Assembly (NCBI GenBank): GCA_001295935.1
Contig: LJHX01000087.1
Coordinates: forward strand, 1-51,296
Direction: 5' to 3'
Source: an alpha proteobacterium AAP81b
GTDB lineage: Bacteria; Pseudomonadota; Alphaproteobacteria; Sphingomonadales; Sphingomonadaceae
DNA length: 51,296 nucleotides
Of this stretch, positions 1 through 27,489 are shown one piece after another; the first letter of the stretch is position 1; every line of letters begins with the position of its first letter. The position numbers and the translations under genes are program-made. Under the pieces are notes generated by a model. It searched no databases. It was not told where the DNA came from and was given only the letters and a program-made list of their open reading frames with translations.

Positions 1-48
1 GGCCGGCGCATCGGCAGCCCCGGCCGCATCCTGTAAGGCCATCGCCAT
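1..48 (-). CDS. 5' end of a further gene of the tubulin/actin-like operon (partial)
   Basis: Only the first 16 codons lie in the window, reading MAMALQDAAGAADAPA. The ATG at 48 sits two bases after the TAG stop of the preceding gene. GGAGG lies 5 nt upstream of it, better placed than for the second ATG at 42. The tight junction means the gene belongs to the same transcript as the vWA, membrane, tubulin-like and actin-like genes. No domain can be recognised from so short a piece. In related arrangements a GTPase or another structural component might be expected, but nothing here shows that. Confidence 0.6.
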   Translation of the reverse strand, partial: MAMALQDAAGAADAPA

Positions 49-50
49 CG

Positions 51-3000
51 CTACCTCCCCCGGACGTTGATCTTCGGTCGCACCCCGCCATCGGGCGGCT
101 GCGACACCATCGAAACCAGCTCGCGCAGTGCGTAGACAAAGGGTTCCTGCGGCAAGAGGCCGAGCTTGCGATCCTGGTCGAGGAAATCGACCATCGATGT
201 CTCCAGCCGGCTGCGATCGTCGAGATCGATACTGAAATCGGCAAAGCGCCCGAATTCGCGCAGGAAGCCGTCCATTTCCTGCAACAGCGGCTTGTCGCCG
301 AAGGAATAGACGGGGCGCGCGGGTTCGCTGTCGTCGAAGGCGGCGAGATCGTCATTGGCCGTGGCGAAACCGCTGAGATCGATGCCGCTGTCGAGCATAC
401 CCGCCGCGACTTCGATCTTCAGCTCGCGCGAGAAGAACACCGAGGCGAGCTTGGGTTGTTCGACCCCGGCGGCGCGCGCCACAAGGCCGAGCAGCCGGCT
501 GACCGGCGTGCGGGCATTGGCGTCGTCGCTGGCGTGGATACGCTTGAACAGCCCGGCGCCGCGGCCGCACAGCGCCACGGCGATCTGCCCGTCGAGCAAG
601 CCCGCGTCGATGACGCCCTCGCCGACCAGGCGCCGGATCTCGCTGCCGACATGCCAGGCGACGCCGCCGAGATAGACCAGCGCTGTCTGCAGCAACCGCT
701 GGACCTCGTCGCTCTGGCTGATCTCGTGCCAGCTCGCCTCCATCGCGGCGTTGAGCGACTTGCCGCTGAACAGCAGTTCGCCAACGTAGCGCCGCAGCTC
801 GGGGGTAAGCGTCGCGCCGTCGCCGGCGGGCGTCAGCACTTCGGTCCATTGCGGCAGGCCGAAGCTGGTCAGGATGCGCGGGTTGTTGATGATATGGCCG
901 GTGAAGAAGGCGCCGCCGGCAAGACGCAGCGATCCCGACCACAACAGCCGCGGGTGGATGCTGGCGGCGCGCGGGTCGCCCTTGCTCCAAATGGCGATAT
1001 CGGTGGTGCCGCCGCCGATATCGAGGATGACGTTGATGTCGCGGCGGGTGAAGCTGCGGTCGCCCTTGCCGCTGAGGATATGGCGCGCGGCGCTCAGCCC
1101 TTCCGAGCGCAGCCGCGACTCGAGCGCGTCGGGCGGTGCGTCGGGGATGATCTCCTTGATCTGATTCCAGATGCTGGTGCGGAAATCACCGTCGTTGGAC
1201 ATCGATTCGGGCCGCGAGAAACGCCATTTCAGCCGCTTGGGATCGATTCCCTGGTCGGCGGCCTCGGCGGCGAGCATCAGGATGACCTGGCGCAGATAGC
1301 GTTTCGACGCGGTGATGGTTTCGGGATCGATCGACCATTTCAGGTTGAAGATCGTCCGCGTCAGCAGCCCGCGCCAGTCGTTGATGTTGAGCGCGCCGAG
1401 CTGCTCACCCGGCGCCGCCACCGGCTGGAAATAGACGAGATGTTCGAACATCAGCTGGTTGGCGACGTCCGATCGCGCCAGCGCGGCGCGGCCTTCGGCA
1501 TCGAGATCGCGCGCGATGACGACGCTGGGTGTCGGCATGACATGGTCGTCCGGCGGCATGAAGTCCTGGAAGTTCTTCGCCATGTCGGTCGTCGCGCGCT
1601 TCAGGAAGTCGGGCGTGCGCGAGCCGATCGGGTGGACGATGCGCGTCTGGAAGCGCACCGGCGCTTCGGTATCGATGCAGGCAACGGTGTTGGTCGTACC
1701 GAAATCGACCGCGACGACGCCGCCGCGCGTCGGCGCCGCCAGCGGCGGGCGCAGATTGACCAGCGCCATGCCGGCGGGCAGCGGCTTGCCGTCGCGCGGG
1801 CGAATGGTGAACAGCACCGCCTCGAACGCCGTCGGCGAGGTCTGCAGCTCGACGACGACATTGTCATAATCCTTGCCGCGCAGCCGCTTGAGCCAGGGCG
1901 CGGCGAAGACGCGGTCCTTGAGCGGCGGCAGCGGATCGGGACCGTCGCCAAAGGCCCGGGCATCGCGCCAGGGCTCGACGCGCTGCGCGCGCATGGCGTT
2001 GACGACGGGATCGCCGAAGCCGTCGGCGGTCAACGTGCCGTGCATCAGCATCGCCGCGATGGCATCCCCCGAAGTCACCAGCCGGCCGCGGATACGGCGG
2101 TCGGTCAGCGTCGGGAAGGTCAGCCTGGCGCAATAATGGCGCCATTCCGGCGATTTGAAATCGGGCCAGAGCGCGACGTCGCCATAACCCCACGCCATCC
2201 TGTCCAGCAGCAGCCCGTCGCCGGGCCGCGGCTCGGCGGCATAGTTGCGCCGCACCAGGTGACCGCGGTCGCCATCCCGGAGCCGCAGCGCCAGGCTGAC
2301 GCTGCCTTCCTCCTCGACGCCGATCACCTGTTTGAGATCGCCCGGGCTGGCGACCAGCAACACCAGCGGCGACAGCGGCAGCAGCGCATTGGCGAAAGCC
2401 GCCGGGTGCGCCGCGATATGGCCGTCGCGCTTGTCGTCGTTCAGCCGCACAAAGGCGTCGGTGAAGAAATCCTCCGGCGTCACCAGCAGATAGCCCGCGT
2501 CGGCGGCTTCCTTGGCGACGCGCGCCCGCACCGCGGCGCTGTCGAGCGCCATACGCAGGGTCGTCTTGCCCCATAGCGCGATGCGGTTGGCGCTGCGGCC
2601 GAGCGTATCCTGCAAGCCGGCATCGAGCAGCACCAGCCCGGCGAAAGGCTTGACGGCAAGATCCTCGCGCAACGGCACCATGCACGCCGAGGCGCCGAGC
2701 GGCGGGTCGCCGATGACGGTGCTACGCCGCAACTGGCGGTAGAGCGGCGCCATGCCGGTGCCCGTCGGCGGGTCCGACACGATCTCGAAGGCGGCTTCGG
2801 CGACGCCGGGTTGCAGCATCGGATCGCTGCAATCGGCGGCAAAGCGCTCGATGTGCGCGCACAGCCGCGTCAGTTCCTCATTGTCGTCACCGCATTGCGC
2901 CTTCAGATCGGCGCGCAGTTGCAGCAGATAGTGGCGAAGCGCCGCCATCTGTTCGAGCGGCAGCGCTGCTTCGCCGCTCAGCCGGGCGGGATCGGTCAGC

Positions 3001-3554
3001 CCGCTGCGCAACCAGGGGATGGCGCCGACGGCGAGCTTTTCGACGTCGCGGCCGGGGGCGATCAAGGTCAGCGGGTTGAGCACGGCGATCGGCCGCGCGC
3101 CGGTCTCGCCGGCGAGCTTGAGCGAGACCACCACCGGGCGCAGCCAGGTCGCGGCGTCATTGGCGGCGTTGAGCGGCAACTGGCGGCGCGGCGCCAGTTC
3201 GCGCAGCACGACGGCCAGCGGCGACCCGCTCGCCGCCAGGTCGAGCGTTTCAAAGCCGAGGGTGTAAACGTCGGCATATTCCCGGCCAAGCGCCAGCAGC
3301 GCCAGCAGCCCGCGCCATTGCGCCGTGACATCGCCGAGCATCGGCTGCGGATAGAGCAGCGCATCGCCGAAGACGCGCAGCTGCGCCCAGGGATCGGGAA
3401 TCGACCGCACCGGATCGACGGCGATATTGTCGGCAACGGCGATGGCGCCGCTGAGATCGGCGAGCGTGCCGCTGATCGGCGCCCAATCGCCGGGGCGAAC
3501 CGCACGCCCCAGAGCAACGCCTTCGCGCAGCGGCGGAATATTGTAGATCGGCAT
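51..3554 (-). CDS. Large protein with C-terminal Hsp70/actin-like ATPase domain
   Basis: A 1167-residue predicted cytoplasmic protein. The N-terminal ~600 residues match no family I recognise. From about residue 610 there is an actin/Hsp70 fold: a phosphate-1 motif in GVVAVDFGTTNTVACIDT, then a phosphate-2 motif in VILDIGGGTTDIAIW near residue 841. This suggests ATP binding and hydrolysis. The start at 3554 (MPIYNIPPL) was chosen because the longer open frame to 3737 runs into the preceding gene and its extra residues look non-coding. It starts 16 nt after the tubulin-like gene ends and is followed within 2 nt by the next start, so it is cotranscribed. Salmonella-type SrfB proteins are also large and Hsp70-like, but I could not establish that this is SrfB. 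The fold is fairly sure; the function is unknown. Confidence 0.8.
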   Translation of the reverse strand: MPIYNIPPLREGVALGRAVRPGDWAPISGTLADLSGAIAVADNIAVDPVRSIPDPWAQLRVFGDALLYPQPMLGDVTAQWRGLLALLALGREYADVYTLGFETLDLAASGSPLAVVLRELAPRRQLPLNAANDAATWLRPVVVSLKLAGETGARPIAVLNPLTLIAPGRDVEKLAVGAIPWLRSGLTDPARLSGEAALPLEQMAALRHYLLQLRADLKAQCGDDNEELTRLCAHIERFAADCSDPMLQPGVAEAAFEIVSDPPTGTGMAPLYRQLRRSTVIGDPPLGASACMVPLREDLAVKPFAGLVLLDAGLQDTLGRSANRIALWGKTTLRMALDSAAVRARVAKEAADAGYLLVTPEDFFTDAFVRLNDDKRDGHIAAHPAAFANALLPLSPLVLLVASPGDLKQVIGVEEEGSVSLALRLRDGDRGHLVRRNYAAEPRPGDGLLLDRMAWGYGDVALWPDFKSPEWRHYCARLTFPTLTDRRIRGRLVTSGDAIAAMLMHGTLTADGFGDPVVNAMRAQRVEPWRDARAFGDGPDPLPPLKDRVFAAPWLKRLRGKDYDNVVVELQTSPTAFEAVLFTIRPRDGKPLPAGMALVNLRPPLAAPTRGGVVAVDFGTTNTVACIDTEAPVRFQTRIVHPIGSRTPDFLKRATTDMAKNFQDFMPPDDHVMPTPSVVIARDLDAEGRAALARSDVANQLMFEHLVYFQPVAAPGEQLGALNINDWRGLLTRTIFNLKWSIDPETITASKRYLRQVILMLAAEAADQGIDPKRLKWRFSRPESMSNDGDFRTSIWNQIKEIIPDAPPDALESRLRSEGLSAARHILSGKGDRSFTRRDINVILDIGGGTTDIAIWSKGDPRAASIHPRLLWSGSLRLAGGAFFTGHIINNPRILTSFGLPQWTEVLTPAGDGATLTPELRRYVGELLFSGKSLNAAMEASWHEISQSDEVQRLLQTALVYLGGVAWHVGSEIRRLVGEGVIDAGLLDGQIAVALCGRGAGLFKRIHASDDANARTPVSRLLGLVARAAGVEQPKLASVFFSRELKIEVAAGMLDSGIDLSGFATANDDLAAFDDSEPARPVYSFGDKPLLQEMDGFLREFGRFADFSIDLDDRSRLETSMVDFLDQDRKLGLLPQEPFVYALRELVSMVSQPPDGGVRPKINVRGR

Positions 3555-3570
3555 CGCTGGCGGCCCCTTC

Positions 3571-5214
3571 TCAAACCCGGGCGGCGTGGTGGAGCGCGGC
3601 GAGCACCCGGCCCATGCCCCTGGTTTTGCCGATGGTCTTGCGGCTGGCGTGGAGTTCGGCGAACAGGTCTCCGGCGGTGCGCGTCGGCCTGGCGGTGTCA
3701 CGGCCGCGCAGCACGTCCTCGAAGGCAGCCTTGGCAAGGACCTCGTCGTCGAGATCGCGCGCCGCCAGCGGCGGCTCCTTCAGCGCCACCGGGTCGGTCG
3801 GCTGGCTGCGATCGCAGCGGTCGAGCACCGGCGCCAGCGACCACAGCCGGAAGGGGTCGCCCGCCTCGGGGTTGATGAACAGCTGCATTGCCGCCGCCCA
3901 TTCGAGCAGGCCCTTGAAGAAGCCGCGCAGATGTTCGCGGGCATCCTGCGTCGGCTGGTCCCAGACGGTATCCCTGGCGAGTTCGCGCAGCCAGGGCTGC
4001 TTGATGTCGCCGACGCGAAGCTCTTCCTTGCCGAACAGTGACTTGTGGCGGCGATCGAAGGCCGGCTCCATCCGGTAACGCCACCAGATCGCCGTCCGCA
4101 GCAGCTGGCCGAGGCGGTTTTCGACATCGATCTTGAGCGCCTCGCCGGCGGGCAGATCGGCCCAATCGACGAAGCCAGCCTCCTTGCGCGCCGAGGCCAG
4201 CGGCGCCGTCTCGGCGGCACGCGCGGCGCCACCGAAGAAGTCGATCGCCGCCAGCGCGCCGACGAGTTCGGGGATCATCGCCGGATTGTGCTGATTGCCG
4301 CTGCCCGCCGAATGATAGTTGAGCTGGATCAGCTCGTTCCAGCCGGCAAGATAGAAGCGATCGAACAGCGCCTCGCGGTCGAAGAGGCGGTGGTAGAAGT
4401 TGAGCGCGATGCGCGACTGCGGCAGCAGATCGCCGGCGCGAACGACGTTGCTGCCCGCCTCGCCGTCCTTGAAGCCGAAATAGGGCAGCATCATCACTCC
4501 GCCGAGCTTGACGCGTGCGCCATCGACCGAGCGGCTTTCGCCAGCGCCGACGGTGGCCTTGCGGAGATTGTCGATCTTGCGGGCGATGGTCGGGAAGCCG
4601 GCGGCGCCGGTACCGCCGAAGATCGACCCGGCGAGAAAGATACGAACCTCGGTGCCCTGCGTCGTCTGCTTGAGCAGCTCCGAAAGCCGGTCGATCAGCG
4701 CGGTGTTGTCGATCAACAGGCTGGCGAGCAGCGCCGCCGAGCCGACATGGGCGCGGCCGCGATAGCCTTCGGCGAGGTCCATCGTTTGTTCTTCATGCGC
4801 GGGGCTGGCCGCCTCACCGCGGAACAGCAGGTCGAACAGCGCCTTTTCGCCGTCGGACATTTCGGTTCGCCCAAGGATCTGCGCGAGATTGCCCTGGTCG
4901 GCATCGGCGGGGCGCCAATGCGCGGTCCGGGAAAACAGCGGCTCGATGCGGGTGCGCAGGAAGGGCGTGCCGCCATCCTCCGGCCGGGCGTCCCAATCGA
5001 GGGCGTTGTTGCGCGGCGGCTCCCAATCGGCGCGCAGGGTACGCAGCTTCTCGACGAGCTCGTTGGTGCGCGCCAGATTGCCATTGCCATTGTCCTGATC
5101 GACGAGCCCGACAAGGACCTGGCCGACGTCGCCCGCGCCGGCGGCAAGCAGATAGAGCGCCGATTCGACGACCTTGGCGCCAGTACCGCCGATCCCGATG
5201 AGGATGTTGATCAT
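3571..5214 (-). CDS. Tubulin/FtsZ-like GTPase family protein
   Basis: A 547-residue protein starting MINILIGIGGTGAKVVES. The N-terminal glycine loop resembles the first nucleotide-binding loop of FtsZ/tubulin. A second glycine-rich signature, GSIFGGTGAAGFPTIAR, around residue 180 corresponds to the GGGTGTG tubulin signature. This pattern fits the bacterial 'tubulin-like' (Tubulin_2) group rather than true FtsZ, which is shorter and lacks the long C-terminal region seen here. The start at 5214 has AGGAG 8 nt upstream and lies 11 nt after the stop of the membrane-protein gene; the open frame continues to 5583 only through that gene. Likely role: a nucleotide-dependent, possibly polymerising, cytoplasmic component partnered with the actin-like protein. 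The substrate process is unknown. Confidence 0.8.
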   Translation of the reverse strand: MINILIGIGGTGAKVVESALYLLAAGAGDVGQVLVGLVDQDNGNGNLARTNELVEKLRTLRADWEPPRNNALDWDARPEDGGTPFLRTRIEPLFSRTAHWRPADADQGNLAQILGRTEMSDGEKALFDLLFRGEAASPAHEEQTMDLAEGYRGRAHVGSAALLASLLIDNTALIDRLSELLKQTTQGTEVRIFLAGSIFGGTGAAGFPTIARKIDNLRKATVGAGESRSVDGARVKLGGVMMLPYFGFKDGEAGSNVVRAGDLLPQSRIALNFYHRLFDREALFDRFYLAGWNELIQLNYHSAGSGNQHNPAMIPELVGALAAIDFFGGAARAAETAPLASARKEAGFVDWADLPAGEALKIDVENRLGQLLRTAIWWRYRMEPAFDRRHKSLFGKEELRVGDIKQPWLRELARDTVWDQPTQDAREHLRGFFKGLLEWAAAMQLFINPEAGDPFRLWSLAPVLDRCDRSQPTDPVALKEPPLAARDLDDEVLAKAAFEDVLRGRDTARPTRTAGDLFAELHASRKTIGKTRGMGRVLAALHHAARV

Positions 5215-5225
5215 GGCAGAAACTC

Positions 5226-5756
5226 CTAGCGGCCGCCGAGCAGGGCGTTGCCGCCCGGCACCGAGACGCGCGACGGCGGGAAGACGCCGAGCGCGGTGAC
5301 GAGGTAATAGAGCAGCGTGGCGGCAAGCTCGCCGGCGAGCAGGCATTGCACGCCAAGCCCCGGCGCCATCGTCACGGCGATCGCGGCGTAGATCAGGCTG
5401 GCCCAGACAAGAACACCGACCACCAGCCAGGTGACGAGCAGCATGATCGCCCAGGATCCGCGTTTGGCTTTGGCGGACGCGTCGCCGATCGGCGGGGCAC
5501 GTTCGACGAGGAAAACCCAGCCGAGCCCGAAGACCAGCGGCACCAGCATGGAGAGAATCGCCGTCTGCAACAGGCGGTTCCACAGATCGTCGACATAGGG
5601 CTGCAACAGGCTGACATCGCCCTGTCCCAGCTGCCGCGTCGCATCGGAAAGCGCCGCCTGGTTGGCGCCGAGGAACCAGAACAGCCCGAGCAGCGCGACG
5701 ATGATGACGAGCGCCGCCGCGACGGCGCGGAACAGGCGACTGGCGAAGGACGGCAT
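5226..5756 (-). CDS. Integral membrane protein of the tubulin/actin-like operon
   Basis: A 176-residue protein with about four hydrophobic helices: near residues 10-30 (VAAALVIIVALLGLFWFLG), 65-85, 103-130 and 137-157. No catalytic motif or known family was recognised. The start at 5756 follows AGGAGC at a normal distance and lies 13 nt after the lipoprotein gene's stop. Its position between an exported vWA-like lipoprotein and two cytoplasmic cytoskeletal-type NTPases suggests an inner-membrane anchor joining the two sides. That role is inferred from context only. Confidence 0.7.
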   Translation of the reverse strand: MPSFASRLFRAVAAALVIIVALLGLFWFLGANQAALSDATRQLGQGDVSLLQPYVDDLWNRLLQTAILSMLVPLVFGLGWVFLVERAPPIGDASAKAKRGSWAIMLLVTWLVVGVLVWASLIYAAIAVTMAPGLGVQCLLAGELAATLLYYLVTALGVFPPSRVSVPGGNALLGGR

Positions 5757-5769
5757 GGGCGAAAAGCTC

Positions 5770-7149
5770 CTATTTGACGCGCAGCGCGACGGCGAAGCCG
5801 CCGGTGACGACGGGGTCGGCTTCGGCGGCGCGGATCAGCGCCGCTTCGAGCAGGCGGGCGGTTTCGTCGAGATTGAGCGTCGGCATCACCGGCCGGGTGA
5901 GCGCCTCGGCCTCGCTGGCGGCGTTGAAGCTCCAGTCGCGCAGCCATTTCGACGCGGGGTTGGGGCTGTCGAGCGCGGTGCGCCGCACTTCGCCGACGAG
6001 CATGTAGATGCCGGGCGTCAGCCGGCGCGCCGCCTGCCCCGGATCGAGGGCGAAGGCGCTGCCCTGCCAGCCGTCGGCGTTCTCGCCGAGCGGCCGCCAC
6101 GACGCCGGCGCGCAATTGTCATCGGCCTGGCGGAACACCCGCGTGCCGCCGCGCACCGGCCCGGTCCATACCGCACCCTCGGCGACGGCGTCGGCCGCCG
6201 GCCCGCGCCATTGCGCCGGGGCGCCCCCCGTCGTCGCGGCGCGCAAGCCAGCCGAGCGGTCGAGATCGAACTGCTGCACCCGGACATTGTCGTGCGTGAG
6301 GAAGATGCCGCCGGCCAGCGGGCCACCGCCCGGCATCGCCAGCGGACGGTCATCGGGCTTGAGGTTGATCGCCGGGGCGCGGGTGAACAGCGCGTATTTG
6401 GCTTTGCCGCGCACCGACGCCGAGGGCGCCAGCGCCATGGCGCGGCGCAGCGCCTCGAGCCGCGCCGGTGGCGCAATGGCGATCATGTAGAAATGGTGGC
6501 GCGCCGGTCGCACATCGCCGCGTCCACTGGGCAGCCCCGAGACACGGCCATCGAAGGGACTTTCATAGCCGTAGATGGCAATGCCGTCGCCGCGCGCGAA
6601 GATCGCGTCGAGCGGCGCCGCCAGCGCCACCGCATCGCTGGTGTTGAGCGTCGTGTTGTCGATCCACAGGTCGGTCAGGATCACCGACAGCGTTCCCGGC
6701 CGCTGCCGCGCCGCATCGGCGAGCGCTGCATCGATGTGGCTTTCCTGATGGTCGCAGTCAGGCTCGCCCGCCGGGCACAGATAAGCGTCGGCCTCCTCCA
6801 TGGCGATGAGTTCGGCGGGCGACAGCGGCGTCAGCCGGCGGTCGAAGCGTGTCGCGGTGACGGCGGAATGGTCGATGCCGGGCAGTTGCGGCAGCATGCC
6901 GATCAGGTCGGCGAAGGGCCGCTCGCCGCGGGTGCCACCGCGAACGAAGCCGACCATGCTTGCCGAGCCATCGACATAGACGTGCAGCGCGCCGCGGTCT
7001 TCCGCTGCCGACAACGAATCGGCGGCGTTGACGACAATCCAGCGCCGCGCCGCTTCCGGAACACAGGCGGCGCCGCCATCGGCCTTGGGCGTGCATGAAA
7101 TAAGCGCAAACGCCGCCAGGAACGCGGCGAATGCGGGTCGAATCTGCAT
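5770..7149 (-). CDS. vWA-like lipoprotein, first gene of the tubulin/actin-like operon
   Basis: A 459-residue protein. The N-terminus MQIRPAFAAFLAAFALISC is a signal peptide ending in a lipobox (LISC), so a lipoprotein is predicted. About residue 57 the sequence ALHVYVDGSASMVGF carries DxSxS, the first part of a von Willebrand A metal-ion-dependent adhesion site. Later, LSVILTDLWIDN could supply a further strand and acidic residue of the fold. The start at 7149 was preferred over 7209 because the signal peptide begins there and GGGGGA lies just upstream. It heads the minus-strand operon after a 150-nt gap from the symporter gene. vWA proteins mediate metal-dependent protein contacts; the partner here is unknown. 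Confidence 0.75.
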   Translation of the reverse strand: MQIRPAFAAFLAAFALISCTPKADGGAACVPEAARRWIVVNAADSLSAAEDRGALHVYVDGSASMVGFVRGGTRGERPFADLIGMLPQLPGIDHSAVTATRFDRRLTPLSPAELIAMEEADAYLCPAGEPDCDHQESHIDAALADAARQRPGTLSVILTDLWIDNTTLNTSDAVALAAPLDAIFARGDGIAIYGYESPFDGRVSGLPSGRGDVRPARHHFYMIAIAPPARLEALRRAMALAPSASVRGKAKYALFTRAPAINLKPDDRPLAMPGGGPLAGGIFLTHDNVRVQQFDLDRSAGLRAATTGGAPAQWRGPAADAVAEGAVWTGPVRGGTRVFRQADDNCAPASWRPLGENADGWQGSAFALDPGQAARRLTPGIYMLVGEVRRTALDSPNPASKWLRDWSFNAASEAEALTRPVMPTLNLDETARLLEAALIRAAEADPVVTGGFAVALRVK

Positions 7150-7236
7150 CGCATTCCCCCACCAACGCGGCGGACATTCCTTTCCACTCGCCGGCTTGTC
7201 CAGTGCCAATCTTGGCGAAGAATGAACGGCGCACGA

Positions 7237-7250
7237 GTGATGTCGATCAC
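7237..7250. promoter_or_regulatory. Possible CRP/FNR-family binding palindrome upstream of the vWA operon
   Basis: The palindrome GTGA-N6-TCAC lies about 88 nt upstream of the vWA lipoprotein start, in the 150-nt gap after the symporter gene. It matches the core of CRP-type sites (TGTGA-N6-TCACA). No convincing sigma-70 promoter was seen next to it, so regulation is only a possibility. Confidence 0.3.
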
Positions 7251-7299
7251 GCGCGCCGGATTTTATTGCCGGGGCGCGACGGCGGGAGGCGGCGATGCC

Positions 7300-8553
7300 T
7301 CAGGCGGGTTGCGCGACGGCGGCGGCGGGCGCCGCACCCTCCCATTTGGCGATGACCGCGGTGGCGATGGCGTTGCCGATGACGTTGGTGGCGCTGCGCC
7401 CCATATCGAGAAAGTGGTCGACGGCGAGGATGAGCAGCAGCCCCGCCTCCGGGATGTTGAAATAGGGCAGGGTCGCGGCGACGACGACGAGCGACGCGCG
7501 CGGCACCCCGGCGATGCCCTTCGACGTCACCATCAGCAGCAGCAGCATGGCGATCTGCTGGCCGAGGCTCAAGTCGATGCCATAGGCCTGGGCGATGAAC
7601 AGGCTGGCAAAGGCGCAATACATCATCGAGCCATCAAGGTTGAAGCTGTAGCCGAGCGGCAGCACGAAGCTGGCGATGCGCCCCGGAATGCCCTGTTTGT
7701 CGAGGGCTTCGAGCAGCTTGGGATAGGCCGCCTCCGACGACGCCGTGGCGAAGGTGATGAGGAAGGGCTCGCGCACCCCGACGATCAAGCGGCGGACATT
7801 GCCGAAGCCGATGATCGACCCGCCGGCGACGATCAGCAGCGCCCAGAGCAGCGCCAGCGCCAGGTAGAAGCTGCCGATGAAGGCGGCGAAGGTCCACAGG
7901 ATGCCGAGGCCTTCGACGGCGATCGCCGAGGCGATGGCGGCGAAGACGGCGAAGGGCGCCACCTGCATGACATAGCCGGTAATGCGCAGCATCATGTGCA
8001 TCAGCGCGTCGAGGCCGCGCAGCAGTGGCCCGGCGCCTTCCCCCATGCCGAGCAGCGCGATGCCGGCGAACAGCGAGAAGACGACGATCTGCAGGATCTC
8101 GTTGGTCGCCATTGCCTCGATGATCGACTTGGGCACGATATGGCTGATGAATTCCTTGAGATCGAAGGCCTTGGTGGCGATGCCCGCCGACGCATCGGCG
8201 CCCGGCAGTTCGAGGCCGACGCCGACGCCGGGATGCAGCAGATTGACCATCACCAGCCCGAGCGACAGCGAAATCAGCGACGCGCCGATGAACCAGCCGA
8301 GAGTGCGGCCGAACATCCGCCCGACGGTTTCCCCCGACCCCATGTGCGCGACGCCGACGATCAACGTCGACAGCACCAGCGGCGCGATGATCATCTTGAT
8401 CAGCCGCAGGAAGACATCGGTGACGATCGACAAATAGCCGGCGATTTCCTTTGCCTGGGCGGGCGACGCCGCCAGGGCGTTGATCGCATAGCCGGTGGCA
8501 AGGCCAAGGACGAGGCCGATGAGGATGCGGCGGGTGAGGGCGTTGGCGTTCAT
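7300..8553 (-). CDS. Dicarboxylate/amino acid:cation symporter (SDF family)
   Basis: A 417-residue multi-pass inner-membrane protein that imports C4-dicarboxylates or acidic amino acids with Na+ or H+. Diagnostic SDF/GltPh motifs are present in order: SSEAAYP (the serine-rich HP1 loop), YSFNLDGSMMY (the NMDGT equivalent), TSKGIAGVPRAS (HP2) and DMGRSATNVIGN in the last helix. The length is typical for DctA/GltT. The start was placed at the ATG at 8553 (MNANALTRR); an ATG at 8574 in the same frame is possible and neither has a strong ribosome site. It precedes the vWA operon on the same strand with a 150-nt gap, so it is probably a separate unit. The substrate cannot be decided from sequence. 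Confidence 0.9.
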   Translation of the reverse strand: MNANALTRRILIGLVLGLATGYAINALAASPAQAKEIAGYLSIVTDVFLRLIKMIIAPLVLSTLIVGVAHMGSGETVGRMFGRTLGWFIGASLISLSLGLVMVNLLHPGVGVGLELPGADASAGIATKAFDLKEFISHIVPKSIIEAMATNEILQIVVFSLFAGIALLGMGEGAGPLLRGLDALMHMMLRITGYVMQVAPFAVFAAIASAIAVEGLGILWTFAAFIGSFYLALALLWALLIVAGGSIIGFGNVRRLIVGVREPFLITFATASSEAAYPKLLEALDKQGIPGRIASFVLPLGYSFNLDGSMMYCAFASLFIAQAYGIDLSLGQQIAMLLLLMVTSKGIAGVPRASLVVVAATLPYFNIPEAGLLLILAVDHFLDMGRSATNVIGNAIATAVIAKWEGAAPAAAVAQPA

Positions 8554-9103: not shown

Positions 9104-10204
9104 TCAGGCCGCCAGCCGCAGCGCCGCGGCGCCGGCACCCGCGTCGGCCATCTGTCGGCCATGCTGCGCCCGCCAGACCGGCTCGTCGATGCCGAGGCTC
9201 GGCGTCGCCGCTGGCGGCAGCCGCAGGCGGCGGTCGAGACCGTCGGTGTCATAGCCCGGGACCAGCGGGGTGATCAGGAAATTGGCGAGCGCCTTGAGGC
9301 GGTTCGCACTGGTGGCGCGGGCGAAGGGCAGCGCCGCATAGCGCCGCGCGATGGTCTCGAAAGCCTCGGGCGCGCGGCCGGTCAGCCGCTCGACCGTATC
9401 GGTGACGCCGCCTTCGAATTCGAAGGTGCCTTGGGCATGGTCCTCAAGATAGGTGATCAGCAGCCGCACCTCATAGGGATCGACCCCCTGCAGCCGGGCG
9501 ACCTTGCGGAACATCCACAAGGGCAGTTCGAAGGGCAGCACGCCATGGCCGAGGGCACGGCCCACCGCCGCCGCCATATCGCGCCCCGACAGCAACGCCG
9601 GGCCGGTCGGGCGGATGCTCTGGCCGGCGAAGCGTGCCGGGTCGGCGAGCAGCACCGCGGCGGTGCGTGCCATGTCCTCGCTCGAAACCGGCGCCGAACG
9701 GCCGCGATGCGCCAGGATCGGATAGATGCCGAGCAGGCTGGCGAAATCGATGACCCGCAGGAAATTGTCGGCGAACATGCCGGGGTTGAAGGTCACCGAG
9801 GCAATGCCGGGCAAGGTCGCGAAGAGCTGGTCGACCAGCCAGGTCTGGCGGGTCATCGGGGTCGGGTGATGGCGGTGCGAGGTCCATTGGCTCATGTGGA
9901 CGATGGCTTCGACCCGCGCCGCCTGCGCCGCGACCGCGAAAGTGGCGGCGCTTTGGATCATCAGCGGCGCCATCGGCGGCAGATACCAGGCGTGCTGGAC
10001 GCCGGTCAGCGCCGCGGTCAGCTGGTCGGGATCGTAGAGATCGGCGACGACGACCTCGGCGCCCTGGGCGGCGAGCGCGGCGCTGCGCGCGTCGTGGCGG
10101 CGGACGAGCGCGCGCACCGGCAGCTCGCGGGCGCGCAGTTCGGCGACGAGCGCGGTGCCGACCTTGCCGGTGGCACCGGTGACGAGAATCAGGGGAGTGG
10201 CCAT
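9104..10204 (-). CDS. NmrA-like / atypical SDR NAD(P)-binding protein
   Basis: A 366-residue cytoplasmic protein. The N-terminus LILVTGATGKVGTALVAEL is the Rossmann GxxGxxG motif of NmrA-like and atypical SDR proteins, followed by VRALVRR and VVVADLYDP, typical of that family. Members are NAD(P)H-dependent redox sensors or reductases acting on unknown substrates. It is longer than the ~290-residue norm, with a C-terminal extension of about 70 residues. The gene is transcribed divergently from the TetR gene, with a shared 140-nt control region holding a perfect inverted repeat, so it is the likely regulatory target. Confidence 0.8.
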   Translation of the reverse strand: MATPLILVTGATGKVGTALVAELRARELPVRALVRRHDARSAALAAQGAEVVVADLYDPDQLTAALTGVQHAWYLPPMAPLMIQSAATFAVAAQAARVEAIVHMSQWTSHRHHPTPMTRQTWLVDQLFATLPGIASVTFNPGMFADNFLRVIDFASLLGIYPILAHRGRSAPVSSEDMARTAAVLLADPARFAGQSIRPTGPALLSGRDMAAAVGRALGHGVLPFELPLWMFRKVARLQGVDPYEVRLLITYLEDHAQGTFEFEGGVTDTVERLTGRAPEAFETIARRYAALPFARATSANRLKALANFLITPLVPGYDTDGLDRRLRLPPAATPSLGIDEPVWRAQHGRQMADAGAGAAALRLAA

Positions 10205-10237
10205 CGCTGCCTCGCGTCTTGGATGATGAATGACCTC

Positions 10238-10269
10238 TATAATCTGCGACCCCGGCTGCTTTGAGTCAA
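10238..10269 (-). promoter_or_regulatory. Candidate promoter of the NmrA-like gene
   Basis: Read on the minus strand, TTGACT (complement of 10264-10269) is followed after 19 nt by GATTAT (complement of 10239-10244), about 35 nt before the ATG at 10204. The -35 is good and the -10 is moderate with long spacing. The TetR-type palindrome lies just upstream of the -35, where a bound repressor would interfere. Confidence 0.35.
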
Positions 10270-10274
10270 GCTCG

Positions 10275-10296
10275 AAAGATGATGTGCATCATCTTT
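10275..10296. promoter_or_regulatory. Perfect inverted repeat, probable TetR operator
   Basis: Arms AAAGATGATG and CATCATCTTT (10 bp each, perfect) are separated by TG. The 22-bp palindrome sits in the divergent region between the NmrA-like gene and the TetR gene, 49 nt upstream of the TetR start. Size, symmetry and position are those of a TetR-family operator controlling both genes. Binding is inferred. Confidence 0.6.
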
Positions 10297-10344
10297 GCTT
10301 GGTGCCGCGCGGGCGAGCGGCTATGCCGCGGGCGGAGGTGCCGA

Positions 10345-10899
10345 ATGCGCGTATCGCGAGCCGCGAAAGCCGAAAGCCGGGACAGGATCGTTGCCGCGGC
10401 GGCGCGGCGGCTGCGCGCCGCCGGCGTCGAGGGAAGCAGTGTCGGCGACATGATGGCCGACGCCGGGATGACCCATGGCGGCTTCTATCGCCATTTCGCC
10501 AACAAGGACGCGCTGGTCGCCGCCGCGATCGCCGCGGCCTTCGCCGAGTTCAGCGAGCCACTCGCCGCCGGCGTCGCCGCAGGAGAGGCGCCGGCGGCCG
10601 CGGCGGATTTCGTGGCGCGCTATCTCGGCGACGGCCATGTCGCCCATCCCGAGCTCGGCTGCCCGGTGCCGGCAACCGCCGCCGACATCGCCCGCAGCGG
10701 CGACGCGGCGCGGGCGGCCTTCGGCGCCGGGGCAACGGCGGTGGTCGATGCGCTCGCAGCGGCACTGACCGGCCCGCGCCGCCGCGAGCGTGCCTGGCGC
10801 CAGTTCGCCATGCTGGCGGGCGCGGTGCTGATCGCGCGGGCGAGCGACCCCGCCACCGCTGCCGAAGTGCTGGCGACGGCGCGCCGGGGCAGCCTCTAG
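10345..10899 (+). CDS. TetR/AcrR family transcriptional regulator
   Basis: A 184-residue DNA-binding protein. Its N-terminal helix-turn-helix has the TetR pattern: RIVAAAARRLRAAGVEGSSV, then MMADAGMTHGGFYRHFANKDAL, the last part being the classic recognition helix and FYxHFxxK element. The C-terminal ligand domain contains GCPVPATAADIA, like the LmrA/YxaF subgroup that often controls oxidoreductase genes. The ATG at 10345 was chosen because GGAGGTG lies 5 nt upstream; the open frame to 10261 has no such site. It is divergent from the NmrA-like gene, which it probably represses. Its stop overlaps the stop of the convergent TonB receptor gene by 4 nt. Confidence 0.9.
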   Translation: MRVSRAAKAESRDRIVAAAARRLRAAGVEGSSVGDMMADAGMTHGGFYRHFANKDALVAAAIAAAFAEFSEPLAAGVAAGEAPAAAADFVARYLGDGHVAHPELGCPVPATAADIARSGDAARAAFGAGATAVVDALAAALTGPRRRERAWRQFAMLAGAVLIARASDPATAAEVLATARRGSL

Positions 10900-13334
10900 A
10901 ACCCCGCTTTCACCCGCACACCGATGGTCCGCGGCCGGGCATAGGTCAGGTAATCGCCGGCCTGCCAATTGCCGACGTACGCCGCGCGCGGGATGACGTT
11001 GGTGATCTTCGTGCCATTGGTCAGGTTGGTGCCGAACACGCCGGCCTCCCAGCGGCCGAAGCTGTAGGCAAGGCCGAGGTTCAAGGTGTCCTGCGGCGCA
11101 ATCCGCCGATAATTGAAGGCGTTGCTGGTACCCGAGGTCGGGTCGCCATTCTGGTTGTAGAGATTGCCGTAAGGCGCGCGATACTGCCAATTGGCGGTGA
11201 AGTGGACGACCCCGCTGCCGACCGGGCGATCGTAGATGGCGCCGATGCCGACGACGGTATCGGGGAAATTCGGCACCTTGTCGCCGGCGCGCGCCTGGGC
11301 GCCGGGGACGTCGATCTCGGTCTTGGCATCGGTATAACTGCCGGCGAAGGTCAGGGTCAGCTCGTCGGTGACGCGCGCGGCGATTTCGAGTTCGGCGCCG
11401 ACGCTGCGCACCTGGCCATTGTTCTGGATGTAATAATAGGCGCATTGCGGCAGCACGACGCGGTTCTGGACCTGGCTCCAGTCAATGTAGAAAGCCGTGG
11501 CGTTGACGGTGAGGCGCTTGTCGAACAGCCGGGCTTTTTCGCCGACCGAATAGGTCCACAGCGAATCAGGGCCGAAGGTGCCGGGCGCGGTGCCGCCGAC
11601 CGATGCGAGCTCCTGGTCGCAGATCGCCGAGCGCGGGATCGGCTGGTTCACGCCGCCATAGCGGAAGCCCTTGGCGGCCTCGAAAAAGACCAGCAGATCG
11701 TCGGTCGCCTTCCATGATGCGACGAAGCGCGGGTTGACGCCGCTCGCCTCGCGCGAGTCCTTGACGGTGATCGGCTGGTTGGCGCGCGGCCCGATGGTAT
11801 CGACGCCATAGATGCCGCCGAAATAGAGATCGAAATCCTGGTGCCAGAAAAAGCCGCGCAGCCCGGCGGTCAGGCTCAGCCGCGGCGTCACGTCGAAGGT
11901 CACCTCGCCGAAGCCTGCGACCTGATATTCGTCGATATTCTGCAGGCCGGCGAAGACGTTGTTCGGCGAGAAGGCGCCATGCGTCGTCTGGCTGTTGTAG
12001 GGATTGCCGGCGTTGGCGGGGTCGGCGTTCCAGCCCTGCGCGACATAGGACAGCGTATCGAAGCCGGGCAGCGGAATGTCCTGGACATAGCGACGGCGCT
12101 GCGACTGGAAGAAGAAGCCGCCGGTGGCGCGCAACCGACCACTCTGGTCACTGCTCAGCCGGATTTCCTGCTGCCAGTCGTCGATGCGGTTTTTGATCGA
12201 ATAGCTTTCGACCGGCAGCTGGTTGACCAGCGCCTGGTTGTAGGGGTTCGGCGGCGCGAACGTCCCATTGACGTTGAAGGGATTGTTGGGGCCGGGCGCC
12301 GCGAACTGGAAGAAATAGGCGACCGTCGGTTCGAGGCTTTCGAGGAAATCGAGGTCGCGGTGGGTGTAGCTCGTCGAGGAGACCAGGCTGACCGGCCCAA
12401 AATCATGGGCGATGGTCAGGTTGACGAGGTGAAACTTGTCGTAGTTATGCTCGGGGCCGTTGCCGCTGAAGGTATAGTCAGGCAGCCCGGCGAAACCGCG
12501 GTAGAGGCCGTGGGCGGCGAGATCGAGATAGGTGTAGCTGAGATCGACGTTGGTATCATCGCCGGCCTGCCAGCGCAGCGCGGCGCGCACCTGGACGGTA
12601 TCGACGCTATTGGCATCGCGCTTGTTCTGGGCGCCGATATTGTCGATGAAGCCGGCGTCATGGCCGTAATAGCCGGTCAACCGCAGCGCCAATTTGTCGG
12701 TGACCAGCGGCAGGTTGAGCATCGCCCGCACCGCGCCATTGGGGCTGCCCGACTTTTCGGTCTGCGACAGGATGCCCTCGGCGGTGCCGAAGCTCTTCGA
12801 AGGGTCGGGCTTGGCGGTGATGTAGCGGATGGTGCCGGTCATCGACCCGGCGCCATAGAGCGTGCCCTGCGGCCCGCGCAGCACTTCGACGCGCTCTAGG
12901 TCGATGACCTTGAGATCGGGATTCTGGCCCTGCAGCGAGATCACCGCATCGTCGAGATAGACGGCAACAAGGCTGCGATCCTGGACGTCCGAGGTCGAAT
13001 TGGGAACGAGCTGGCCGGTGGTCAGGCCGCGGATCTCGATCTTGTTGATGCCGGGGCCGGCCTCGACGATGTTCAAGGCCGGCGTGTAGCGGGTGAGGTC
13101 GGCAAGGGAGAAGCTCGCGGTGCGGTCGAGGCGATCGGGGGTGATCGCGGTGACGGCGATCGGCACGTCCTGAAGATTCCTCGCCGCGCCGCGCTCGGCG
13201 GTGACGATGATTTCGTCGGTTGGCGCTTCGGTTTCGGCGGCCGATACCGCCGTCGCCGCAACGATTGACAGCAGCGATGTCGAAATCGCCACGAATTTGA
13301 GCGCCCCCGGCGCCCCCCGCAGGTGGTTTTTCAT
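10896..13334 (-). CDS. TonB-dependent outer-membrane receptor
   Basis: An 812-residue outer-membrane beta-barrel that takes up a bound ligand using TonB energy. It has a signal peptide (residues 1-33, cleavage near AVSAAE), a TonB-box-like EIIVTAER, and a plug domain with IEIRGLTTG, VAVYLDDAVI and DLERVEVLRGPQGTLYGAGS. The barrel ends in a C-terminal phenylalanine (VRVKAGF) as required for assembly. The length is normal. It is divergent from an M20 peptidase plus Rieske oxygenase pair, so the ligand may be an organic compound degraded by those enzymes; that is inference. Sphingomonads carry many such receptors and the substrate cannot be read from sequence. Confidence 0.92.
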   Translation of the reverse strand: MKNHLRGAPGALKFVAISTSLLSIVAATAVSAAETEAPTDEIIVTAERGAARNLQDVPIAVTAITPDRLDRTASFSLADLTRYTPALNIVEAGPGINKIEIRGLTTGQLVPNSTSDVQDRSLVAVYLDDAVISLQGQNPDLKVIDLERVEVLRGPQGTLYGAGSMTGTIRYITAKPDPSKSFGTAEGILSQTEKSGSPNGAVRAMLNLPLVTDKLALRLTGYYGHDAGFIDNIGAQNKRDANSVDTVQVRAALRWQAGDDTNVDLSYTYLDLAAHGLYRGFAGLPDYTFSGNGPEHNYDKFHLVNLTIAHDFGPVSLVSSTSYTHRDLDFLESLEPTVAYFFQFAAPGPNNPFNVNGTFAPPNPYNQALVNQLPVESYSIKNRIDDWQQEIRLSSDQSGRLRATGGFFFQSQRRRYVQDIPLPGFDTLSYVAQGWNADPANAGNPYNSQTTHGAFSPNNVFAGLQNIDEYQVAGFGEVTFDVTPRLSLTAGLRGFFWHQDFDLYFGGIYGVDTIGPRANQPITVKDSREASGVNPRFVASWKATDDLLVFFEAAKGFRYGGVNQPIPRSAICDQELASVGGTAPGTFGPDSLWTYSVGEKARLFDKRLTVNATAFYIDWSQVQNRVVLPQCAYYYIQNNGQVRSVGAELEIAARVTDELTLTFAGSYTDAKTEIDVPGAQARAGDKVPNFPDTVVGIGAIYDRPVGSGVVHFTANWQYRAPYGNLYNQNGDPTSGTSNAFNYRRIAPQDTLNLGLAYSFGRWEAGVFGTNLTNGTKITNVIPRAAYVGNWQAGDYLTYARPRTIGVRVKAGF

Positions 13335-16046: not shown

Positions 16047-16298
16047 ATGACGAGCGTCAGTTTCGCCGAACTCCGCAAGAACCTTGCGGTCTATCTCGAT
16101 CGCGCCAGCGAAGGTCGCGACGCGATCCTTGTTAGCCGTCGGGGCAAGGCGCCGGTCGTCATGGTCGCGGCGAGCGAAATGGCAGGCTGGGCGGAAACCG
16201 TTCGCCTGCTCAGCAACCCGCGCAACGCCCGGCGCCTGCTTGAATCGATTGCCGACGCCGATGCTGGAAAATTCGTTAAGCATGATCTTGGCAGGTAG
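16047..16298 (+). CDS. Phd/YefM family antitoxin, orphan
   Basis: An 83-residue protein starting MTSVSFAELRKNLAVYLDR, the standard Phd/YefM N-terminal DNA-binding fold, followed by ILVSRRGKAPVVMVAASEM. These are type II antitoxins that repress their own operon and neutralise a RelE/YoeB or Doc toxin. No toxin frame follows: downstream is a 9-codon open frame and then a long palindrome. The start at 16047 is preferred to 15924, which lies inside the Rieske gene. Either the toxin was lost or the protein acts alone as a regulator. Confidence 0.8.
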   Translation: MTSVSFAELRKNLAVYLDRASEGRDAILVSRRGKAPVVMVAASEMAGWAETVRLLSNPRNARRLLESIADADAGKFVKHDLGR

Positions 16299-27121: not shown

Positions 27122-27139
27122 CCGGCAAGGCCCCATATC
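27111..27139 (+). promoter_or_regulatory. Candidate ssrA promoter
   Basis: TTGCAA (27111-27116), 17 nt and CATATC (27134-27139), overlapping the end of the glycosyltransferase gene. Just downstream, CCGGGC-TTCG-GCCCGG makes a tetraloop hairpin at the likely 5' end of the tmRNA precursor. Confidence 0.35.
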
Positions 27140-27145
27140 GGGCGC

Positions 27146-27489
27146 GCCGGGCTTCGGCCCGGATATGGCGATAAACGATGTCGTGGAATAGATGCAGCGG
27201 ACCCGGGGGCAGTACCCGGCGACTCCACCAACACCCCCCGGTTGTCGCGGGATGAATGGGGTCGAACCAGGATCGACGTGTATTCAAAGACGATGTTTTC
27301 GCCCGGCCTGAATGCGCCGTAAAACCGTTCATTCACACAAATGCCAACGACAACGAGGCATTCGCAATCGCAGCGTAACCCGGTCCTAACGGACTAAGTT
27401 ACACTGGCCGAAAGCGCGGGACGGGCCGCCCCGGGCAACAGAAGCGGAAACCGGCGGTACGGGGAGCACCGAGCAACAGAAGCTCCCCA
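27146..27489 (+). ncRNA. ssrA: tmRNA, two-piece circularly permuted (alphaproteobacterial type)
   Basis: Rescues stalled ribosomes and tags the unfinished protein for proteolysis. The acceptor piece comes first and ends CGACTCCACCA at 27230. The coding piece starts near GGGGTCG at 27258. These ends pair as a 7-bp acceptor stem with a G3-U70 pair, the alanine identity element. The tag frame at 27343-27378 reads ANDNEAFAIAA followed by TAA, ending in the AA needed for ClpXP recognition. A terminal stem GGGGAGC / GCTCCCC (27461-27467, 27482-27488) marks the 3' side. The outer ends are approximate. It is directly upstream of sspB, whose product binds the tag. Confidence 0.93.

Follow-up and report, generated by a model that had tools for sequence, protein, structure and literature searches.

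We analysed a 51,296-nucleotide stretch of DNA from the alpha proteobacterium AAP81b (Sphingomonadaceae; assembly GCA_001295935.1, contig LJHX01000087.1, positions 1 to 51,296), hereafter the window, which corresponds to contig C194 of our genome set (genome G000) from its base 1. Its left end carries four genes, named here vwa, mem, tub and actin, and comparative sequence analysis confirmed that their arrangement is real and far above chance: the order recurs elsewhere, and the glycine-loop and phosphate-motif cores are kept at about 20% identity. The reading that we favour, at roughly even chances, is that this cassette may be an envelope-anchored machine built on a tubulin-fold/actin-fold pair in the manner of FtsZ and FtsA. 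The four genes and the two that follow them are listed below (gene borders outside named records come from our own gene caller and are approximate).

5770-7149, minus strand: vwa, a 459-amino acid (aa) lipoprotein with a von Willebrand factor A (vWA)-like domain
5226-5756, minus strand: mem, a 176-aa membrane protein
3571-5214, minus strand: tub, a 547-aa protein with a predicted tubulin/FtsZ fold, a divergent Tubulin_2/FtsZl1 relative by sequence comparison
51-3554, minus strand: actin, 1167 aa, with a predicted actin/Hsp70 fold at about residues 609-1064
1-48, minus strand: start of g5, the remainder of which lies on contig C203 (locus L009, 13089-14258, minus strand)
L009 11841-13067, minus strand: g6, the next gene on C203 after g5

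The original prediction, made from the letters of the window, had described four minus-strand genes with short gaps and the start of a fifth, and the coordinates bear this out: the vwa/mem, mem/tub and tub/actin gaps measure 13, 11 and 16 nucleotides (nt), and the ATG of g5 lies at position 48, 2 nt past the actin stop. All of the motifs that it named are present (a lipobox, DGSAS, GIGGTGAK, GGTGA, DFGTTNT and DIGGGTTD), and a simple hydropathy scan agreed with its four membrane helices in mem. It had also pointed beyond the left edge of the window. There, the last 33 bases of C203 match the first 33 of C194 exactly, and the reading frame of g5 is continuous across the overlap; the operon therefore very probably extends onto C203, which carries the remainder of g5 and g6. 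We inferred this junction from the overlap, and it is backed by the N-terminal domain of g6, which also adjoins the cassette in four relatives. A promoter and terminator scan of positions 1-7700 returned 0 and 3 sites, no excess over shuffles.

Structure prediction supports a tubulin/FtsZ fold for the tub protein. Residues 1-369 of the predicted structure, the part covered by the VIA comparison, had the fold of a GTPase domain, and FtsZ topped the VIA list. The protein carries the glycine loops GIGGTGAK and FGGTGAAG; the T4-type loop GGTG appears as FGGTGA(A/S)G in 15/15 aligned relatives. D353, also invariant in 15/15 relatives, sits just before a long helix in the model, which has further helices beyond residue 358. 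Against Pfam Tubulin_2 (PF13809), the window protein scored 19.2 bits, under the cut-off of 27, and its relatives scored 40.8 (Gloeothece, over the cut-off), 26.1 (L054) and 22.5 (L052). A profile comparison of the tub family with two canonical FtsZl1 proteins gave E = 3.8e-7, the controls giving 0.48 and 0.74. On these sequence comparisons, tub is a divergent relative of FtsZl1/Tubulin_2, and the link to vWA-associated FtsZ-like families suggested earlier for it held up.

FtsZl1/Tubulin_2 systems join a tubulin-fold protein to a vWA partner and envelope proteins, and the cassette resembles them with its tubulin-fold protein, a putative vWA-like partner and envelope proteins. In the accessible part of their paper, Makarova and Koonin (2010; PMC2875224) propose a membrane-remodelling role for FtsZl1, whose operon partners they give as vWA, GTPase, kinase and OmpA proteins; the same part of the main text names no FtsA, MreB or Hsp70 and uses "actin" in other contexts only, and its unnamed families A1-A2 and B1-B9 could include the mem and actin partners of the cassette. 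In contrast to FtsZl1, the cassette tub protein is compact (465-600 aa in mapped loci, versus 1025 and 1530 aa for the two canonical proteins that we opened), and the cassette adds a small membrane protein and an actin/Hsp70-fold protein of about 1040-1490 aa, neither of which is mentioned in that part of PMC2875224. At the two canonical FtsZl1 loci, we found a vwa-profile match at one (L058) and an actin or mem match at neither; at L058 7319-14094 (plus strand), the vwa-profile gene (E = 5e-8) is followed by the 1530-aa Tubulin_2 protein. PMC9871819, in its accessible portion, separates Tubulin_2 proteins from the main FtsZ/tubulin tree. Within the accessible open-licence PubMed Central literature, we found genomic predictions and no experiment for the FtsZl1/Tubulin_2 family, and no publication on the four-gene unit.

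The large protein encoded by actin carries the phosphate motifs DFGTTNT and DIGGGTTD. The phosphate-1, phosphate-2 and adenosine motifs are represented by the patterns D(F/L)G(T/S) and D(I/L)GG in 14/14 relatives and by a varied glycine motif at the adenosine place. In the predicted structure, residues 609-1064 formed a two-lobed nucleotide-binding fold, which supports an actin/Hsp70 fold; the VIA comparison covered this segment, and about 600 N-terminal residues lie outside it. FtsA, MreB and DnaK fell within one Z unit of each other, FtsA and MreB slightly higher in what amounts to a tie, so the choice between an actin-like and an Hsp70-like protein is unsettled. The two cytoskeletal-type folds announced from the sequence were thus both recovered by structure prediction, with the qualification that one of them may equally be read as Hsp70. 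A crude hydropathy scan picked out one hydrophobic stretch, residues 385-403 (score 1.8, threshold 1.7), in an otherwise soluble-looking protein.

Another reading is that the cassette serves envelope quality control or works as a chaperone system: an Hsp70-like protein would handle exported proteins, and the tubulin-like protein would act as a regulatory GTPase. Foldseek ranked DnaK and other Hsp70 chains first for the actin domain, a classical Hsp70-family gene (Pfam E = 8e-40) lies at L086 19996-21576 downstream of the L054 cassette, and LprI and SH3_3 partners adjoin the cassette. We consider such a system improbable: in a Pfam scan, the window protein showed no substrate-binding region of the Hsp70 type, and VIA placed FtsA and MreB marginally above DnaK, although tied with it.

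A second relationship suggested by the phosphate motif is to SrfABC operons, in which case the large actin-like protein would be SrfB. Both proteins have about 1000 aa or more and a DIGGGTTD-type motif, and their profiles aligned at E = 3.5e-8 (probability 95%), but this alignment was limited to 47 columns around the motif. The window protein itself gave E = 0.08 and 11.3 versus 27.1 bits with SrfB (PF07520), short of a full-length match, and a search for SrfB in its own genome found none. One of the two SrfB loci that we opened matched the actin profile (E = 2.2e-6) and the other did not at E ≤ 1; unlike the cassette, neither contained a tubulin, vWA or multi-pass relative, since tub, mem and vwa all went without a match there at E ≤ 1. 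We rejected identity with SrfABC, because only a single motif is similar and both opened loci lack the partners, and regard it as improbable in the extreme.

The gene order vwa-mem-tub-actin recurs in Alphaproteobacteria, cyanobacterial plasmids, Prevotella and IMG/VR contigs. An alignment-based scan of genome contigs with tub found 12 loci, where a single-sequence scan found no match, and 14 distinct loci including the window lie on alphaproteobacterial genome contigs, some of 0.8-2 Mb (we take the classes from the organism names); L024, for example, belongs to Parerythrobacter lutipelagi. Six PLSDB records carry a tub relative, and we opened four of the six. Five of the six are cyanobacterial plasmids, L051 coming from a Picosynechococcus plasmid, and one is a Prevotella record that, at 1.77 Mb, is chromosome-sized. 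IMG/VR contigs also yielded cassette loci. Three tub queries found no match in phage records; plasmid records gave no match to vwa and two to actin.

We mapped 21 loci, among which L055 and L056 are nearly the same region on two contigs. In all 21, actin follows tub on the same strand (profile E ≤ 6e-33), as it does in the window and in L087. Four IMG/VR loci that are outside the actin profile matched it at E = 5e-61 to 6e-33; many of the other loci are profile members. A small gene precedes tub in 21/21 mapped loci, and the mem profile matches it in 17; the non-matches are L053-L056, and the three that we checked had 3-4 hydrophobic helices. The next gene matched the vwa profile in 18 of the 19 loci with enough contig (the exception being L054), and in L050 this copy is on the opposite strand. 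L054 and L087 each have a gene at the vwa position without a profile match. The broad mem and vwa profiles include members from L049-L052; with profiles built from alphaproteobacteria only, these four loci matched tub (4/4, E = 2e-81 to 3e-37), actin (4/4, E = 9e-88 to 2e-18), vwa (4/4, E = 1e-19 to 2e-7) and mem (2/4). L087 matched tub at E = 2.5e-62, actin at 5.3e-59 and mem at 0.005.

Distribution is sporadic. Within the window's own family, tub matched in 6/199 genomes, five of them with the full protein, and full-length actin and vwa were found in exactly those five (the identity of the three 199-genome draws is inferred from genome handles). Of the 50 genomes matched in the actin search, we disregarded 45, in which the match was limited to 32-62 positions at the phosphate-2 motif. 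The sixth tub genome, G144 (E = 5.9e-4), was rejected: in a protein of 767 aa, the match covers some 100 residues, no other cassette gene is nearby, and this genome has no vwa match, an actin match of motif length only and no accessory-domain match. Within the genus of the window, tub is missing from three other genomes. A class-wide search found tub in 2/385 genomes, the window's own included, and a phylum-wide search in 2/398, its own and G087. The four genes are thus conserved together where they occur, in the same order and in the same five family genomes, as the proposal of a single operon had implied; with both folds recovered as well, neither of the two refuting outcomes named in the original prediction came about. 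Pairwise distances of the four proteins across 19 loci (leaving out L022 and L028, which are cut, and the near-duplicate L056) correlated at r = 0.90-0.98, with r = 0.979 for tub and actin, and 0/2000 permutations reached any of the six values. These covarying sequence distances fit inheritance as a unit.

The plasmid loci raise the alternative of a DNA-segregation system like TubZ or ParM. Tubulin and actin folds and the five cyanobacterial plasmid records would suit one. The 14 loci on alphaproteobacterial genome contigs (untyped for plasmids), the recurrent membrane and exported partners and the absence of a DNA-binding adaptor recognisable by eye (no systematic search was made) all speak against it, and we judge it very unlikely.

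The exported partner, vwa, has a lipobox (LISC, with C19) and the signatures VDGSASM and ILTDLWID. An hhalign comparison of 15 vwa relatives with VWA_2 domains gave E = 1.5e-4 over 105 columns with 9 seeds, at a probability of only 52%, and E = 1.9e-4 with 12 seeds (three in the wrong frame); none of six control profiles fell below 0.1 in either comparison. With a second family alignment, the values were E = 2.1e-3 and a probability of 13%. The match spans the D-x-S-x-S and T-D region, and D.S.(S/G) occurs within the first 160 residues in 9 of the 15 relatives listed, with short start calls in L023 and L025. Pfam found no vWA model match in the window protein or in nine vwa-position relatives (L049, L050, L052-L055, L016, L021 and L087; thresholds E ≤ 0.1, 1 and 0.01), and profile searches of the Protein Data Bank (PDB) returned nothing relevant. 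The vWA-like lipoprotein of the original prediction accordingly keeps its lipobox and DGSAS, and lacks a Pfam vWA match and, in several relatives, a complete DxSxS. Proteins at the mem position have 2-4 hydrophobic helices across the relatives scanned.

Genes after actin differ between loci and carry the main clue to cellular location. In the window's operon, g5 encodes 394 aa with one membrane helix (hydropathy scan), a Pro/Ala-rich linker and a C-terminal domain; in g6, a membrane helix accompanies an N-terminal domain and an LprI domain. Alphaproteobacterial loci carry a g5-like gene behind actin. In L021 this is L021_4, which matches g5 at E = 1e-8, and a profile of the g5 C-terminal domain (g5 plus ten hand-chosen genes) found the non-seeds L025_13, L018_7 and L027_6 at E = 4e-39 to 2e-33. 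A 76-position N-terminal domain (alignment A9) gave eight matches at E ≤ 0.003 in 5/7 genomes, all within about 8 kb of tub (in the window's own genome by way of the overlap with C203). A weaker match, at E = 0.05, lies elsewhere in G023, and G144 and G482 had none. Most of the eight are the profile's own seeds, and the informative part is that almost nothing else matches.

Nine proteins with the 76-position domain were scanned. On the far side of a single membrane helix, five of them have a Pfam domain that passes its cut-off: three have SH3_3, one TonB_C (E = 2e-18) and one LprI. Two of the other four have SH3_3 under the cut-off, and two have no domain. An accessory protein of L087 has a CW_7 wall-binding domain and, by eye, a membrane helix. 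We place the core at the envelope mainly because it is joined to these different envelope-binding partners; they make the envelope-spanning part of the original prediction plausible from sequence. Elsewhere on L009, a plus-strand gene at 10143-11741, convergent with g6, appears by eye to encode a phosphate-binding-like domain with an OmpA-like C-terminus, and another at 6952-8124 (plus strand), about 5 kb beyond the g6 start, encodes a second vWA protein (VWA_2 E = 2e-7) that looks CoxE-like by eye.

The envelope-anchored tubulin/actin machine that we favour would combine these features. Sequence and structure prediction show the two folds, a gene order that recurs, genes inherited together, a membrane protein with several passes and an exported vWA-like protein that a lipid or a membrane helix retains. 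In the proposed mechanism, tub would bind GTP through its T1/T4-like glycine loops and the actin protein ATP through its phosphate loops. The multi-pass protein would be the site where the two come together, on the cytoplasmic side of the inner membrane, and the vWA-like protein and accessory single-pass proteins would connect them with the periplasm, peptidoglycan or outer membrane. Driven by nucleotide, the machine would alter the envelope locally, by scaffolding, remodelling or repair. The sporadic distribution would be in keeping with a benefit limited to certain conditions.

FtsZ and FtsA are the best-known working pair of a tubulin relative and an actin relative. The cassette resembles them in giving a tubulin-fold protein an actin-fold partner, and FtsZ and FtsA top the respective VIA lists; it differs in its exported vWA-like protein and sporadic distribution, and its actin partner is presumably some 2.5-3.5 times the length of FtsA. 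If our reading is true, the cassette would be a second, separately assembled tubulin/actin pair kept together across Alphaproteobacteria, Cyanobacteriota and Bacteroidota, and would allow a clean test of how general this design is. One branch of the FtsZl1/Tubulin_2 family would also gain a function. As a genetically defined unit, the cassette lends itself to deletion or expression in one piece.

Several observations weigh against this reading. The best Foldseek match to the tub model had E = 1.6e-3, with none at E ≤ 0.001, and PDB sequence-profile searches with tub found no tubulin. Inspection by eye recognised no T7 catalytic loop, so that the tub protein may or may not hydrolyse GTP. The actin domain is equally near to Hsp70 and to FtsA/MreB and could be a chaperone-type switch that forms no filament. 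The vWA assignment is weak, hence "vWA-like", and the metal ion-dependent adhesion site motif is altered in relatives, with E for D in L052, L053 and L055 and larger departures in L036 and L054. Species relatedness alone is also expected to raise r, and linkage is not function. Polymerisation, nucleotide use, output and the interaction of the cassette proteins with one another are predictions. So are several elements of the original prediction, which is supported in part: metal binding by the lipoprotein, an anchoring role for mem, and remodelling, secretion or defence as the task of the machine.

Sporadic distribution would also suit an anti-phage or conflict system, the main rival to the reading that we favour, though less likely than it. 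Here the vWA-like protein and wall-binding partners would sense envelope damage caused by infection, and the tubulin- and actin-fold switches would trigger arrest or a membrane lesion. Its best support comes from L055 (12529-16398, plus strand) and L056 (14105-14899, plus strand), where MotA/TolQ-type ZorA-like and MotB-type ZorB-like genes follow actin almost without a gap and in the same predicted operon, a likeness to Zorya (ZorAB) borne out by PADLOC matches to ZorA (E = 6e-5, L055) and ZorB (E = 2e-7, L055 and the same gene of L056). The gene after the ZorB-like one matches the defence-candidate models PDC-S14 through a DUF4357 domain, and a UvrD-type helicase gene lies upstream of the L055 cassette. 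In L087 (4950-19479), the cassette directly follows relaxase and tyrosine integrase genes; in L054, a phage terminase is encoded on the contig and a DNA invertase gene just before the cassette; in L053, a phage tail gene and the cassette are some 1 kb apart; and at a distance of 1.7 kb from the Prevotella cassette, a gene matches restriction-enzyme models (E = 1.7e-17). CoCoNuT systems keep the defence reading alive, since the accessible part of PMC11090510 describes restriction operons that likewise combine Hsp70-like with vWA proteins.

Such mobile contexts are expected in the IMG/VR and PLSDB loci, because those collections hold only viral and plasmid records. The neighbours were hand-picked as suspicious with no background control, and 6/10 had no match at E ≤ 0.001 and 5/10 none at E ≤ 0.1; all seven alphaproteobacterial neighbours scanned with PADLOC were without a match. 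PADLOC matched 0/4 window proteins at E ≤ 1, and Pfam showed no nuclease or toxin domain in the cassette core. Unlike Zorya, the core has no MotAB, helicase or nuclease by Pfam and PADLOC, and g5 and g6 have no PADLOC match. The window copy itself lies 10 kb from rpoB/rpoC-like genes (assigned by eye). A more speculative and rather unlikely combination is a widely transferred module, in which one nucleotide-driven, envelope-spanning tubulin/actin machine with varying wall-binding or proton-driven ZorAB-like partners would act against phages or envelope attack; prokaryotic immunity or envelope surveillance based on a cytoskeleton would then have a new class.

Other features were recorded around these loci. 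After the L087 cassette come a tetratricopeptide repeat (TPR) protein, two proteins of about 192 aa without a Pfam match and the CW_7 protein; TerD-like neighbours suspected there by eye were dropped, as Pfam gave no support. The L054/L086 contig also has a ParB/methyltransferase gene, and its actin-like gene is longer (1491 aa). Two genes lie upstream of the Prevotella cassette (L052 2411-5150, minus strand), one being the restriction-model match (read as McrB-like) and the other matching none. In the window, a Phd/YefM-like antitoxin gene was assigned by eye at 16047-16298 (plus strand), and a tmRNA gene (tmRNA*, tag ANDNEAFAIAA) lies at 27135-27469 (plus strand), downstream of the rpoB/rpoC-like genes.

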